This document shows, piece by piece, positions 7,283 to 20,734 of a stretch of 21,590 nucleotides of DNA. The notes beneath the pieces are model-generated. The model was not told the DNA's origin and ran no database searches. It saw only the letters and a program-made list of their open reading frames with translations. Origin of the DNA: Gryganskiella cystojenkinii (Eukaryota; Mortierellomycota; Mortierellomycetes; Mortierellales; Mortierellaceae); contig JAAAIG010000672.1 in NCBI GenBank assembly GCA_015852425.1, forward strand, positions 1 through 21,590. The letters run 5' to 3'. The position numbers were made by a program, and so were the translations under genes. Every line of letters begins with the position of its first letter. Position 1 is the stretch's first letter.

Positions 7283-7522
7283 ATGAAAGCTTCAACTCTT
7301 TCTCTGTTTGTTCTTGTCGTTGGCGTTGTTGCTGCTCAGCTACCTGAATGCACCCAACCTTGGGACGTTGACGAGTATCATCCAGACCCCAGCAGCTGCA
7401 GTCACTACTATCTATGCAATAACGGTGTGCCCATTCGTCAACCCTGCCAACCCGGTCTCGAGTGGAATCAAGTTCTTCTAGTTTGCGACTGGCCAGCCTC
7501 AGCTGGCTGCGTTTTGCATTAG
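7283..7522 (+). CDS. Secreted single-domain CBM14 (peritrophin-A) chitin-binding protein
   Basis: 79 aa, one exon. Residues 1-18 are a clear signal peptide (MKASTLSLFVLVVGVVAA); the mature chain is about 61 aa. It has exactly six cysteines (23, 39, 45, 55, 68, 76) in CBM14 spacing, with the family signature DPSSCSHYYLCNNG and QPCQPGLEWNQVLLVCDWP. CBM14 domains bind chitin and are held by three disulfides. A well-known fungal example is the Avr4 effector of Cladosporium fulvum, which shields hyphal chitin from host chitinases (family knowledge). Here the domain is the whole mature protein. It may coat the fungus's own wall or shield it; which one cannot be told from sequence. A poly(A) signal begins 5 nt after the stop. 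Confidence 0.88.
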   Translation: MKASTLSLFVLVVGVVAAQLPECTQPWDVDEYHPDPSSCSHYYLCNNGVPIRQPCQPGLEWNQVLLVCDWPASAGCVLH

Positions 7523-15870: not shown

Positions 15871-16247
15871 CCTGTCTTCCAGATGAAGACACGTGATTCT
15901 TGCGAGGACCCTTTAGTCAGATGCCAATCGCTCGATCCATGCGCGTTCATTCTCGAGTTTCGTCCTGGTGGTAGGGACCATGACAATGACAATGACAATG
16001 ACAAGGATAAGAAGCACGAAAGCGAGTGCGGTCCCTGTTTGCCAAAGGTGCACGACCCTCTGCCTTCTCAGCAGGCCCTTACTGTCTTCTGAGCAGAATT
16101 TTCCTTTTGGGTCATGCAGCGCCTCCATGTTCTGTGCGACATTACTTTTTCTTTTTCTCATTGCATGTCTACTTTTTCTCTTCATTCCCTTCGCCTTTCG
16201 ACGCCCTTCTTTTTATTTTATTTTTTTGGTTTCTTTGGCGTCTCAAG
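15871..16247 (+). promoter_or_regulatory. Promoter/leader of first F-box/CxxC gene
   Basis: Holds a CACGTG at 15890-15895, a short (TGACAA)n tandem repeat at about 15981-16003, and a strongly T/C-rich leader (16140-16240) ending CTCAAG before the ATG. The same CTCAAG precedes the ATG of the third paralogue. Confidence 0.4.
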
Positions 16248-17072
16248 ATGAACTTCTCTCCTGACCAAACCCTTGACGGTAGTGGCGGTCATTCCCACGA
16301 AGTAACAATCTTCGAGGAGGAACTCGACTTTTCTCCGATACTTCAAACTGCCATCCTGGCTTCGCTCTCAACATCCCAAAACAACCAGCTGCGGCAACGG
16401 CAGTCATCTCGTCTGGACATGTTCTTCCCGATGGAGATCTGGGAGAACATCTGTGGTTACCTCTATCCATCTCAACTCTGTCGTCTCTCTCTAACCAGTC
16501 GAATCATGTATGAGTATGTTGGCTCTCTCAAGATCTGGAAAAAATGGTTCCATAAAACCCATGGCCCATTGGCGCAGTTTCGGCCTTTGACTGGCTTACC
16601 CGAGTCCCGCTCCTATATGCTGTACATGTGCGCCACAAGTTTGTTGATCTGTGAAGAATGTGGTCGTCGGATCCGCCACGACGAAATTTCGGTTCTTGAC
16701 AAACCGTACTATCTAACTTTGTCAATCAACACTCAAGCGGTACTACCCAGAAAGTTGCACCTGTGCCTGAACTGTCGTCAAAAGTCTGGTCTCCACTCTT
16801 TGCTCCCTCAGTCCATCTGTGACTCGTATCTCCCTAAGAGCGAGGTTCTCGGGAAATACCATGGAATCATTGGCAGGACTACGCTCAAATCCATAACGGA
16901 CCGAACTCAAGATCCACTGTCGTACAATGTGCTTTACTCTGAAAAGGCGGTATGGCAAATTATCCGCAGAAGACTTGGAGGTGATGTCGGGTTTTATGCC
17001 ACTCCAGAGCATGTGAGCAATGTTCGACTGTGCACCTTCCTTCGAATTCAGTCACTGCTGGTCCAGTGTTGA
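16248..17072 (+). CDS. F-box protein with two-CxxC putative zinc module, paralogue 1
   Basis: 274 aa, single exon. The ATG at 16248 was chosen over an in-frame one at 16026, because the intervening codons translate a pyrimidine-rich leader (Phe/Leu/Ser runs) and the paralogues start here. Residues ~57-101 are an F-box (MFFPMEIWENICGYLYPSQL, then SLKIWKKWF). C135-x2-C138 (LICEECG) and C173-x2-C176 (LHLCLNC) look like a four-cysteine zinc site. A conserved tail follows: SYLPKSEVLGKY and YSEKAVWQIIRRRLGGDVGF. The F-box predicts binding to Skp1 in an SCF ubiquitin ligase; the CxxC module and tail presumably bind the substrate. The tail faintly recalls XPA-like folds (YLL...L and GG blocks), which I cannot test. 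Same strand as paralogues 2 and 3. Confidence 0.75.
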   Translation: MNFSPDQTLDGSGGHSHEVTIFEEELDFSPILQTAILASLSTSQNNQLRQRQSSRLDMFFPMEIWENICGYLYPSQLCRLSLTSRIMYEYVGSLKIWKKWFHKTHGPLAQFRPLTGLPESRSYMLYMCATSLLICEECGRRIRHDEISVLDKPYYLTLSINTQAVLPRKLHLCLNCRQKSGLHSLLPQSICDSYLPKSEVLGKYHGIIGRTTLKSITDRTQDPLSYNVLYSEKAVWQIIRRRLGGDVGFYATPEHVSNVRLCTFLRIQSLLVQC

Positions 17073-17325
17073 GACCCTTTCGCTCGCTCTTCTCTATCTC
17101 GACTCTTTCATGCAAATACCCCTTTCATTTTTGCATTGGGAGCTTTGCCTTCGGTTTACTATCCTGAACCAACCGAGTACTAAAAAAACGTGCTATTAAA
17201 TTATGATATAAATAGTATAGCACCCTTTACAGAGTTTAGTACAGATGAACAAAGCATCACAACGCGTCCGACGAATTCTATGCAGAGAGGAGAGAAAGAG
17301 CTGCTCATCGAAGGATCAAACAGCA

Positions 17326-17740
17326 ACGTCGCTATGAACGCTTGGCTGCCACAAGTCAGTCACATTTGATTGTGTTCCTCTGGGAGTGAGTGACACGAAA
17401 GGCGAAGCAAAGGCAAAGCTCGTCTCACCATACCTCGAATTTTTCCTCAGATCCCTTGACATTCATTTTCTTTGTGCCACCACCAAAATCGGCAGAGGAG
17501 CGGTCGTGGTGGTCGTTCTTCGGTGCCGACATGACTGGCGAAGTAGAAATGTCGCTATGAATTCTTGGCTTACACAAGCCAGTAAGCCTATCAAAAGGTG
17601 ACCAAACATATCTCAATTAGGAGTTAGAAATTTTGCATTGTCCTACAGCACCCTTGAATTTTCATCAGATCCCATGAAATTTTCCTTGTGCAAGCAACCA
17701 TGATCGATAGTCGCTGACCTACACTAATTCTTGCCAGGCC
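17326..17740 (+). repeat. Degenerate ~215-bp tandem repeat (about two units)
   Basis: Unit starts GTCGCTATGAACGCTTGGCT (17330) and GTCGCTATGAATTCTTGGCT (about 17550), each continuing .ACACAAG/CCACAAG.CAGT. Each unit later carries CTTGAATTTT-like sequence, CAGATCCC.TGA, and TTTTC(T/C)TTGTGC (17440-17490 and 17650-17695). A third start may lie at 17710 (GTCGCTGACC...AATTCTTGCC). A related copy sits near 7660-7850. Confidence 0.6.
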
Positions 17741-17772
17741 CTGCGACTCATCAGTGTCCCATGGTCTACTCA

Positions 17773-17779
17773 TATATAA
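17773..17779 (+). promoter_or_regulatory. TATA box upstream of the Rpn-like gene
   Basis: TATATAA in the context CATATATAAGGC, about 180 bp upstream of the ATG at 17956. With the C/T-rich leader that follows it makes a plausible RNA polymerase II promoter. Confidence 0.5.
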
Positions 17780-17955
17780 GGCAGCGTCCCATCAACTTCA
17801 GTTTCGCCTGAAACACTATCGTTCGCTACACTTCCTGCCCACTTCCTGCCCTTGGAACTGTTCTTGTTCACAACTCCCCGTCTACGTTATCTAGCTCTTG
17901 TTCTTGTCGCCTCTAGTCTCTTTTCCCCCTCTTCCCCCCCCCCTCTACCAGTCCT

Positions 17956-18159
17956 ATGACTATCGCGCAGCAACTCGAACAGAAGGGCCTCCAAAAGGGC
18001 TTGGAGCAAAGCCAGCAGCAGGGCCGCCAACAGGACGAATACTTGGCCAAAGTCGAGGTCGCCAAACAGCTTATGAAAAATGATGTTAGTCGTGACATCG
18101 TCAAGCTTACCACTGGACTATCAGACGAGGACCTGGATAAGTTGATCTCGAGCATCTGA
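17956..18159 (+). CDS. Stand-alone homologue of the Rpn (YhgA-like) C-terminal segment
   Basis: 67 aa, one exon: starts MTIAQQLEQKGLQKGLEQ, has a Gln/Gly/Lys-rich helical stretch, then VEVAKQLMKNDVSRDIVKL and TTGLSDEDLDKLI. This is the pattern of the C-terminal end of bacterial Rpn proteins (PD-(D/E)XK nuclease, PF04754-like). That end has a charged G-rich repeat helix followed by an 'A..L...G.....I...TGLS..E...L' motif. In Escherichia coli this segment is also made alone from an internal start and inhibits the full nuclease, which acts in phage defence (published work on Rpn). Here there is no nuclease domain upstream or in the flanks. The frame is closed by a stop in the leader, codon use looks like the neighbours, and a TATA box and leader precede it. 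Ancient bacterial transfer is inference; function in a fungus is unknown. A coiled-coil protein of similar look cannot be ruled out. Confidence 0.65.
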   Translation: MTIAQQLEQKGLQKGLEQSQQQGRQQDEYLAKVEVAKQLMKNDVSRDIVKLTTGLSDEDLDKLISSI

Positions 18160-19001
18160 GGATTATCCCGACTACTGTTAGTACTGTGTAAACGCCATGT
18201 AAGATTTATTGACAATGTCGATCTTTCTACTCAGAACCAGATGGCCCTTAACCAAGGTATTCTTCTAGAGACATGCACCAACCTGTTTACACACCACGCT
18301 TAAAAATAGATATCTGCCTAAGCCAGATGGAACCTCACCTTTCCACACATGTTTAAATACTGTGCGGCTTTGGGCAGTCAATGCAAAGAAGGGGTGCAAG
18401 GCGAAGTTAAAGTCCACAGAAAGCAATACGTCAACGACAGGCACGGGTCGGTTCTGTGGTCGACAGCCACCAGAAATAAATTGTTTGATTTGCAGCCAAA
18501 CAGAAAAAAAATCTTGAACAAAGTTCAGGAACAAAGCTTGGAATTTATTGTGCCTTTCAAAAAAAATTGATAGAAACAGAGCGAAAAATCGATTTTTAAT
18601 ATCGTTTGTGTTTGCATGGGGTTTTTGCGAGATTGGCAAGTTGAAGACACTGACGAACAACTCCTAAAATGATCCTAAAAGATGGTTTTGATAGTTAGCT
18701 TATATCAAAACCATCATTTTTTGTCACCAGGTCTCTCTCGCTTCTGTGTCAAAAAAATAGTTTAGACCCGCTCTAATATCTGGGTTCTTTTGCCGTGTGG
18801 CGATGGACAATGGCTGAGTGCATGAAATGGACTCCAGGGACACTTTTTTTTTGGTCGTCGATCAGTCTGGATTGTCAGGGCTAATACAATCGCAAGTCCT
18901 TGCCTCAGAGTATCTCTCTTTCTTTCCTGCACTCTTCCCTCTTTCTCTCCCGCCAAGCCGTTCTCATTTTCACTTCTCTCTACCACCACCACCTGGTTAA
19001 A
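18160..19001. other. Intergenic; hairpin and leader of paralogue 2, no gene seen
   Basis: Unrecognised ORFs on both strands around 18265-18660 have no domain and biased composition. A perfect 13-bp inverted repeat lies at 18681-18715. From about 18905 the plus strand is C/T-rich and forms the leader of paralogue 2, ending TGGTTAAA before the ATG. Confidence 0.4.
18681..18715. repeat. 13-bp perfect inverted repeat (hairpin)
   Basis: GATGGTTTTGATA (18681-18693) and its exact reverse complement (18703-18715), separated by a 9-nt loop. T-rich sequence follows on the plus strand. Could form a hairpin in RNA or be a trace of a small transposable element. Confidence 0.7.
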
Positions 19002-19847
19002 ATGTACTCTATGCCCGGTCAGCTTCCGGTCGATAACGCCGACCCTCCGACTGAGACCATGACCAACGCCAACCAAGATCTTGAACTCTCCTGGATGCTT
19101 CAGAACACCGCTCTGGCTCCACTCTCGCCCTTTTCAGATCACTCCCCGAAGAAAGAGGCTCTTCGGTTGGACCAGTGTTTCCCTTTGGAGATCTGGGAAA
19201 AGATATCTCGTTACCTATACCCATCTCAACTATGTCGCCTCGCTCGAGCCACTCGAGCCTTGAACGAGTCTGTAGGGTCTCTCCAGGTCTGGAAGAAATG
19301 GTTTCTGAAAACCCAGGGGTGTTCTTCAGCACCATTTAAATACCTACCTGGTGTCACCGAATCCCGATCCTACATGTTGTACCTGTGCGCCAACAGCTTG
19401 ATGATCTGCGAGGGATGTGGTAATCAGCATCGTCTGGACCAGACACCTGTGGTCGTTTCACCTGCTAGCATCCCACTGACCCGTCAAGCACCTGCGTACT
19501 TTGTGCCTGGGACCTCCCTGCATCTATGCCTGAGCTGTCGTCGTCAACGTTGTGCCGAATATGTCAGAGATCCCTTTCCAGACGATATTCGAGGTGTTTA
19601 CCTGTCCAAGCGAGAGATCCTTGAAAAGTACGCAGGTCGAATTGGAGCCGGCTCTGTTCGGAGTATCGAGGTCCGACGAGGCGGTGGTCACAAGTCTGGA
19701 AAACCGGTCACGTACTCTGAACAAGAAGTGTGGAAGATTCTTAGGGACCAATACGGAGGTGATGTCGGGATCCAAGCAACGATCGAGACGGTCCGTCATG
19801 TCGAGTCTCGAAGGGTCCAGAGATTGCAAGAGTTGATATTCTTCTAA
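19002..19847 (+). CDS. F-box protein with two-CxxC putative zinc module, paralogue 2
   Basis: 281 aa, one exon. The ATG at 19002 was preferred to the in-frame one at 18900 because the upstream codons read as leader. F-box at ~57-101 (RLDQCFPLEIWEKISRYLYP, SLQVWKKWF). The middle block SRSYMLYLCA is shared almost exactly with paralogue 1. Zinc-site candidates are C136-x2-C139 (MICEGCG) and C176-x2-C179 (LHLCLSC). The full tail is kept: GVYLSKREILEKYAGRIG and YSEQEVWKILRDQYGGDVGI. It appears the most complete family member here, and the N-terminal ~50 residues are the divergent, Pro/Ser-rich part. Predicted SCF adaptor; target unknown. An AATAAA lies about 87 nt past the stop. Confidence 0.75.
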   Translation: MYSMPGQLPVDNADPPTETMTNANQDLELSWMLQNTALAPLSPFSDHSPKKEALRLDQCFPLEIWEKISRYLYPSQLCRLARATRALNESVGSLQVWKKWFLKTQGCSSAPFKYLPGVTESRSYMLYLCANSLMICEGCGNQHRLDQTPVVVSPASIPLTRQAPAYFVPGTSLHLCLSCRRQRCAEYVRDPFPDDIRGVYLSKREILEKYAGRIGAGSVRSIEVRRGGGHKSGKPVTYSEQEVWKILRDQYGGDVGIQATIETVRHVESRRVQRLQELIFF

Positions 19848-19933
19848 ATATCTTCGCCTGTCGATTCTTTGGAATCTTTTGGTAAAAAGCTTTCTATCCA
19901 AATGGTCGTTGCACCTCGTAGTAACTTCGAAAT

Positions 19934-19939
19934 AATAAA
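19934..19939 (+). terminator. Poly(A) signal AATAAA of paralogue 2
   Basis: AATAAA in an AT-rich context, about 87 nt after the stop codon. Confidence 0.45.
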
Positions 19940-20086
19940 ACTTTTGAACAACTCTTAATATATGGAAGGCTTCGATCTATCAAATCAAAAGTCAGGGCAT
20001 ATGATATATCATGGTACCATTTACAAAACTGTAACTTATTTTTTTCGCTCTTTTCTTCCTTACCCTTCTGCCATCGACCGCTCAAG

Positions 20087-20734
20087 ATGATCTCTCATTC
20101 CGATGAATGGTTTGTAAATAATGTTGATCCGCAGACCGAGAACTCTACTCCCCAGGACCATCGAGACCTCGATCTTCCCCCGGCGCCTCCTCTACACGAA
20201 CTCTGTGTCTCAGGCAGCGATGAACCGGAACAAGAGCGTCTTCAACTGGATCAAGCCTTCTCATTGAAGATTTGGGGAAGGATCTGTGGTCATCTCTACC
20301 CTTCTCAACTTTGCCGTCTCGCTCGGACAAGTTACACCATGTACTCTTTCGTTGTGTCACTCAGGGTCTGGAAGAAGATGTTTCTTTGGAACGTCCAAGA
20401 TCCCTTGAGACAAGTACAGGCATTTCAGGACATGCGAATGCCCAAACGTTGTTTCTACATGATGTACATGTGCGCGCGCAGTCTGCTGCATTGCGAGGAA
20501 TGTGGCTATTTGTTCCCATTGAAGAACGATCACTTGTTCACGGTACCTCAGAAAATGCCACTGTCGGTCGAGGTCCCAAAGGTCTCTCCCAAGAAACTGC
20601 ATCTGTGTCTGGGCTGTCGTATGAGACTTGGAGCGGATAAAGCCGTCGTACACGCTGCCACGCTGGAGAGGGTGAAGACTATTTGGATTCGGGCCATGCG
20701 ACGGATCGAATCGATTCAGGCTAGGCGTCGATGA
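20087..20734 (+). CDS. F-box/CxxC paralogue 3, C-terminally shortened
   Basis: 215 aa, one exon, ATG preceded by CTCAAG as in paralogue 1. F-box at ~53-100 (LQLDQAFSLKIWGRICGHLY, SLRVWKKMF). Cysteine pairs at C136/C139 (LHCEECG) and C174/C177 (LHLCLGC), with the MMYMCARSLL block between F-box and first pair. After the second pair it keeps only RAMRRIESIQARRR, matching the SVRSIEV stretch of paralogue 2. It then stops, so the YSEQEVW...GGDVG tail is missing, and no trace of that tail follows in any plus frame that I can see. It may still bind Skp1 and zinc but probably differs in partner binding. Could be a functional short form or an early step of decay. Confidence 0.7.
   Translation: MISHSDEWFVNNVDPQTENSTPQDHRDLDLPPAPPLHELCVSGSDEPEQERLQLDQAFSLKIWGRICGHLYPSQLCRLARTSYTMYSFVVSLRVWKKMFLWNVQDPLRQVQAFQDMRMPKRCFYMMYMCARSLLHCEECGYLFPLKNDHLFTVPQKMPLSVEVPKVSPKKLHLCLGCRMRLGADKAVVHAATLERVKTIWIRAMRRIESIQARRR

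Follow-up and report, generated by a model that had tools for sequence, protein, structure and literature searches.

An orphan homologue of the bacterial antitoxin segment RpnS in the genome assembly of Gryganskiella cystojenkinii

How a gene resembling only the antitoxin-like end of a bacterial nuclease comes to stand alone in a eukaryotic genome is the question raised by a short open reading frame (ORF) of Gryganskiella cystojenkinii (Mortierellaceae). The ORF lies in positions 1 to 21,590 of contig JAAAIG010000672.1 (GenBank assembly GCA_015852425.1), the whole stretch of DNA analysed here and called the window. Zhong et al. (PMC10327210) describe bacterial RpnS as the C-terminal part of the Rpn nuclease, translated separately via an internal start; it pairs as a dimer via its long helix 1 and inhibits full-length Rpn. 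Helix 1 carries four-residue repeats of one hydrophobic plus charged or glycine residues. E. coli RpnS blocks its cognate Rpn through direct binding, and the inhibition is pair-specific and set by the repeats: RpnB is not blocked by RpnA-S, and one extra repeat abolished the action of RpnC-S. Free-standing rpnS copies (rpnE-S/ypaA and rpnC-S) are described in bacteria. The ORF and its parts are as follows.

17956..18159, forward strand: rpnS-like gene, single exon, 67 codons plus stop, frame uninterrupted
17956..17988, forward strand: start and residues 1-11 (MTIAQQLEQKG), residues and start identical to bacterial RpnS segments
17962..18078, forward strand: predicted long helix 1, residues 3-41, corresponding to the dimer helix of RpnA-S (PMC10327210)
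18091..18153, forward strand: predicted helices 2 and 3, residues 46-66, helix-turn-helix-like, containing TGLSDEDL

The protein has 67 residues, begins with MTIAQQLEQKG and ends with TGLSDEDLDKLISSI; its length is uninformative alone, because 113 ORFs of at least 60 amino acids occur in the window. It is almost certainly an RpnS homologue. The profile phrog_3300 (annotated as a transposase, Rpn type) matches it with E 2e-14 at profile positions 247-311 of 313, and the short family phrog_5416 (66 positions) with E 4.1e-12 at positions 1-61. TIGR01784 (Rpn family) matches with E 1.2e-7 and 31.8 bits, a score under the curated cut-off of 52.1 because the ORF has the C-terminal end (last quarter) only. 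The catalytic N-terminal nuclease domain is missing, the Rpn profile matches beginning at position 218 or later. Against a hidden Markov model (HMM) built from 80 bacterial segments the protein scored 74.9 bits, whereas 10.6 was the maximum among the 1998 of its shuffles that were scored (2000 made), a result that contradicts a generic Gln/Lys-rich coiled coil. Weaker NCBIfam matches (Wmk, 5.1e-6; FliH, 0.0086) were taken as helical resemblance. A search of full-length proteins returned six Rpn proteins (285-325 amino acids) at E <= 0.001 among 19 candidates, the best being Erwinia typographi P0007 with 53% identity over 90%. The large protein database gave six matches at E <= 1, namely the window protein itself and five of 50-105 amino acids; precomputed annotation assigns PF27070.1 to the ORF protein and to four of these five. 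Two null results weigh against the identification: the Pfam profile search of the ORF found no family at E <= 1, and searching the PDB by sequence failed to recover RpnA-S, the best match being an unrelated chain at E 0.33. The first-pass annotation of the window had noticed a resemblance to the antitoxin-like C-terminus of Rpn; the phrog, TIGR01784 and 80-segment HMM matches confirm it, the Pfam search adding nothing.

A three-helix bundle with a long helix 1, as in RpnS, is predicted for the protein, and the best solved match to the predicted fold is 7th0. Conservation was scored in an alignment of the ORF with 36 rows (33 of the 80 bacterial loci, chosen by hand, plus P0002, P0003 and P0005). 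The ORF retains 18 of the 21 columns conserved at 90% or above (G19, L40 and G43 are lost) and shows the commonest residue in 1 of 14 variable columns. The variable four-residue repeats that sit in helix 1 of bacterial RpnS appear degenerate by eye; their register is visible, they are Gln-rich, and the glycine lost at position 19 falls among them. At the DNA level the ORF is on average 55% identical to the 80 loci (maximum 61%), and the residues shared with the closest rows are mostly encoded by different codons.

The bacterial comparison loci are the best 80 of 205 relatives from a scan of genome contigs. An ATG aligns with the start of the ORF in 80 of 80, a count that the search pattern MTIAQQLE biases toward ATG; the independent signal is therefore the ribosome-binding motif. 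Of these loci, 72 have AGGA, GGAG or GAGG between -16 and -4, versus 47 of 1453 upstream control positions in the same loci. Upstream of the aligned start, 59 loci have an open frame of 200 codons or more; among the remaining 21, an upstream nuclease match is present in 16 and was not found in five (L039, L056, L057, L087 and L104), one of which lies 25 bases from a contig end. The RpnS segments of the 80 loci are 57-77 amino acids long. As judged by alignment, the start of the ORF coincides exactly with the bacterial internal start, where the first-pass annotation had put it only "almost" there. The aligned ATG and the Shine-Dalgarno-like motif thus make the eukaryotic gene the counterpart of separately translated RpnS (PMC10327210).

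The ORF is present as a single copy in the 35-Mb assembly. Across the assembly, which is possibly incomplete, no match to Transposase_31 (PF04754) was found, and the sole match of phrog_3300 and TIGR01784 was the ORF; E. coli and Synechococcus controls were positive in these searches. A cognate full-length Rpn with nuclease domain was not detected in the assembly, and the supposed orphan status holds to that extent. A six-frame search of the window for a nuclease remnant used an HMM made from the N-terminal halves of 59 bacterial proteins; its best score was -0.3 bits.

The ORF resides among the host genome's own sequence, and the host is eukaryotic, with a gene content that suggests a fungus. 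A neighbouring 472-aa frame has 8 relatives, the best at 78%. As had been noted earlier from the letters, it sits within an F-box gene array, with three tandem F-box-like genes around it (16206-20734).

16206..17060, forward strand: upstream neighbour, F-box gene, 42% identical to the downstream paralogue
18900..19847, forward strand: downstream neighbour, F-box-like gene

The F-box family has 23 matches in the assembly, and three of the first eight listed are in the window. A dispersed repeat covers positions 17229-17364 and has 40 other matches in the assembly at 76-96% identity, and the downstream flank of the ORF carries repeats found on contigs C813, C136, C439 and C941. Because host repeats and F-box paralogues flank the ORF within a single contig, contamination is very unlikely. 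A bacterial contaminant or endobacterium was also sought with the bacterial small-subunit (SSU) rRNA model, which hit two places in the assembly, neither of them taken as bacterial. The hit on C269 (787 bits) lies in a 45-kb contig with 24-33% GC around the rRNA, read as mitochondrial; its frames include some that we take to be homing-endonuclease-like and nad-like. The eukaryotic SSU model fits the other place, on C551, better (416 bits) than the bacterial one. A palindrome-like repeat at 18677-18719, which C813, C136 and in part C941 also carry, in both orientations, is possibly a small non-autonomous transposon. Diverged direct repeats just 5' of the gene (17322-17583 and 17441-17681, about 220 bases apart; 39 nucleotides at 82% and 23 at 87%) suggest an old tandem duplication. 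Elsewhere in the window, 7283-7522 encodes a secreted-looking protein of 79 amino acids whose Peritrophin-A domain (CBM_14, E 4.7e-14) is of the chitin-binding kind. No RNA families or tRNAs were found in the window.

Horizontal origin together with nuclear residence of the ORF is very probable. The transfer proposed in the first-pass annotation agrees with the finding that the named sampled relatives are all bacterial; the ancient date given there is conjectural. The closest rows are Enterobacterales, namely Candidatus Sodalis endolongispinus (54% over 65 columns) and Erwinia. In a tree of 98 rows the ORF groups with Candidatus Sodalis endolongispinus with a support of 82 in the Shimodaira-Hasegawa-like approximate likelihood-ratio test (SH-aLRT); after removal of nine long-branch rows (89 rows) the grouping has 93 bootstrap and 38 SH-aLRT support. 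On these 72 alignment columns the sequences suggest a gammaproteobacterium as the source, most likely an Enterobacterales relative. The Rickettsiella order was rejected as a nearest source, being no closer than the Enterobacterales: 9 of 16 genomes match at E <= 1e-6, the best at 1.5e-12 versus 3.7e-15 for Erwinia. Phages and plasmids were likewise rejected, the only matches being Sodalis phage phiSG1 (3 records, 54% query coverage) and Arsenophonus nasoniae plasmids (6 records, 48%). Five of the relative loci lie in viral contigs. The 1.7-Mb genome of Rickettsiella massiliensis has 13 matches at E <= 0.001, and three small free-standing rpnS-like genes stand there in a row (L119, L121 and L142; G001:C1:540071-540652). 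The terms Rpn, nuclease and transposase have no occurrences in the available part of a survey of interkingdom transfer in 44 early-diverging fungi (PMC11291939).

The surroundings of the gene carry the following candidate expression signals, among them the TATA box that had been reported from first inspection.

17773..17779, forward strand: putative TATA-type box TATATAA, 176 bases 5' of the ATG, pattern match only
17876..17955, forward strand: pyrimidine-rich leader, 82.5% C+T (80-mers of the window: mean 51%, 99th percentile 79%)
18475..18480, forward strand: putative poly(A) signal AATAAA, 316 bases 3' of the stop, pattern match only

The stretch 17770-17955, up to the ORF start, is free of ATG. 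Leaders close to three F-box starts are also pyrimidine-rich (0.80, 0.79 and 0.69, two of the three positions not falling exactly on the ATG). The codon preference of the ORF is inside the range of the window genes and at the upper limit of the range in bacteria, whose mean is further from it than the window genes are; its third-position GC content (GC3) of 0.67 is above all six window genes compared.

The interpretation favoured here, with moderate confidence, is that the ORF derives from a bacterial rpnS, has become fixed in the nuclear genome of a eukaryote, probably a fungus, and is reused as a stand-alone dimeric binder. Its computed basis is the homology, the start position, the intact frame, the predicted three-helix fold and the lack of a detectable nuclease in window and assembly. 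An rpnS segment would have been acquired horizontally from a gammaproteobacterium and placed, from the internal start codon on, behind a eukaryotic-looking promoter and leader. The product would be expressed as a small soluble dimer and the gene kept by selection; that the ORF is functional and selected is, on balance, probable. The protein would pair through helix 1 and act by itself as a helical binder in dimeric form, a dimer being the simplest expectation because the start motif and helical layout are kept. The cognate nuclease would have been lost and the protein co-opted for a host function, most likely via a protein partner and, as second choice, by a helix-turn-helix role on DNA; this particular mode of partner binding is proposed tentatively.

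The alternative that survives best, unlikely but of some weight, is that a piece of bacterial rpnS strayed in recently, is not under selection, happens to be open still and does nothing. The frame is short, and in neutral simulations it stayed intact in 26% (with indels) to 55% (no indels) of cases at 0.05 changes per site, in 1.7% to 13% at 0.2 and in 0.1% to 0.9% at 0.6. Bacterial RpnS is so varied that 50% identity to the sampled ones needs no long residence in the host, and no relative of the host is known to carry the gene (that the protein database lacks fungal orthologues is uninformative). Bacterial flanks would be expected of such a fragment, yet no nuclease remnant was found. At 0.2 changes per site all 120 runs still showed the simulated nuclease half, counted as visible at 10 bits or above; the share was about 60% at 0.4 and 4% at 0.6, so that this half disappears only where almost no frames survive. 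Had a whole rpn been inserted and decayed neutrally, it is therefore very unlikely that rpnS would have stayed intact while the nuclease dropped out of sight. This argument is void if the nuclease half was deleted or if rpnS arrived alone, and separate small rpnS do exist (PMC10327210; Rickettsiella). The codon preference, nearer the window genes, also speaks against an unselected insertion.

It is improbable that the protein is a working antitoxin or decoy neutralising Rpn nucleases of bacteria in or near the host, as the first-pass annotation had imagined for resident endobacteria; a captured antitoxin serving without its toxin as cross-kingdom immunity, decoy or symbiont-control protein against the Rpn of cohabiting bacteria has an equally small chance. 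The scaffold role suggested in the same annotation is conjecture. The ORF still has the conserved start motif and the helix, and E. coli RpnS does bind and block its Rpn, but the published inhibition is cognate-specific (PMC10327210) and the repeats of the ORF appear degenerate. Bacterial 16S rRNA was not found in the assembly, and a protein devoid of an export signal should not reach the cytosol of an intracellular bacterium. The apparently degenerate repeats and the lack of a detected partner nuclease thus favour the stand-alone binder over a working antitoxin. A DNA-binding regulator, a dimer whose helices 2-3 would work as a helix-turn-helix like that of TrpR-type repressors, is no less doubtful: small helical motifs match widely, and the available portion of PMC10327210 does not report DNA binding by RpnS. 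Chance or low-complexity resemblance and assembly contamination have a negligible probability, for although Q and K abound in the first half and tblastn with a low-complexity filter matched residues 28-63 or 32-63 only, the shuffles stay far below the protein's score, residues 1-11 equal the bacterial consensus, the match takes in the C-terminal TGLS motif, and host sequence stands on both sides.

Among known systems the ORF is closest to E. coli RpnA-S (PDB 7th0; PMC10327210), sharing the homologous segment, start position, a similar length and the predicted three-helix fold. Unlike RpnA-S, it is in a eukaryotic nuclear genome with no cognate nuclease found in the assembly; it lacks a bacterial ribosome-binding context, has a putative TATA-type box and a pyrimidine-rich leader of its own, and its repeats appear degenerate. 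It is free-standing like the separate bacterial rpnS (rpnE-S/ypaA and rpnC-S, PMC10327210; Rickettsiella massiliensis L119), but the E. coli copies lie downstream of a full rpn and L045 has an upstream nuclease match, and the ORF has neither. The full-length Rpn of Enterobacterales (Erwinia typographi P0007, Candidatus Sodalis endolongispinus L029) are 50-54% identical in the C-terminal segment but carry the PF04754 nuclease domain that the ORF lacks. RpnS itself is already known; what appears to be new is an orphan RpnS in a eukaryote, and no title or beginning of an abstract in the open-licence literature, which was partially covered, describes one. A stand-alone eukaryotic RpnS beginning at the exact bacterial start would show that the product of a gene within a gene is able to move and endure as a unit of its own. 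Such a gene may also serve as a clean test case for the reuse of an antitoxin after loss of its toxin, and for the action of RpnS alone.
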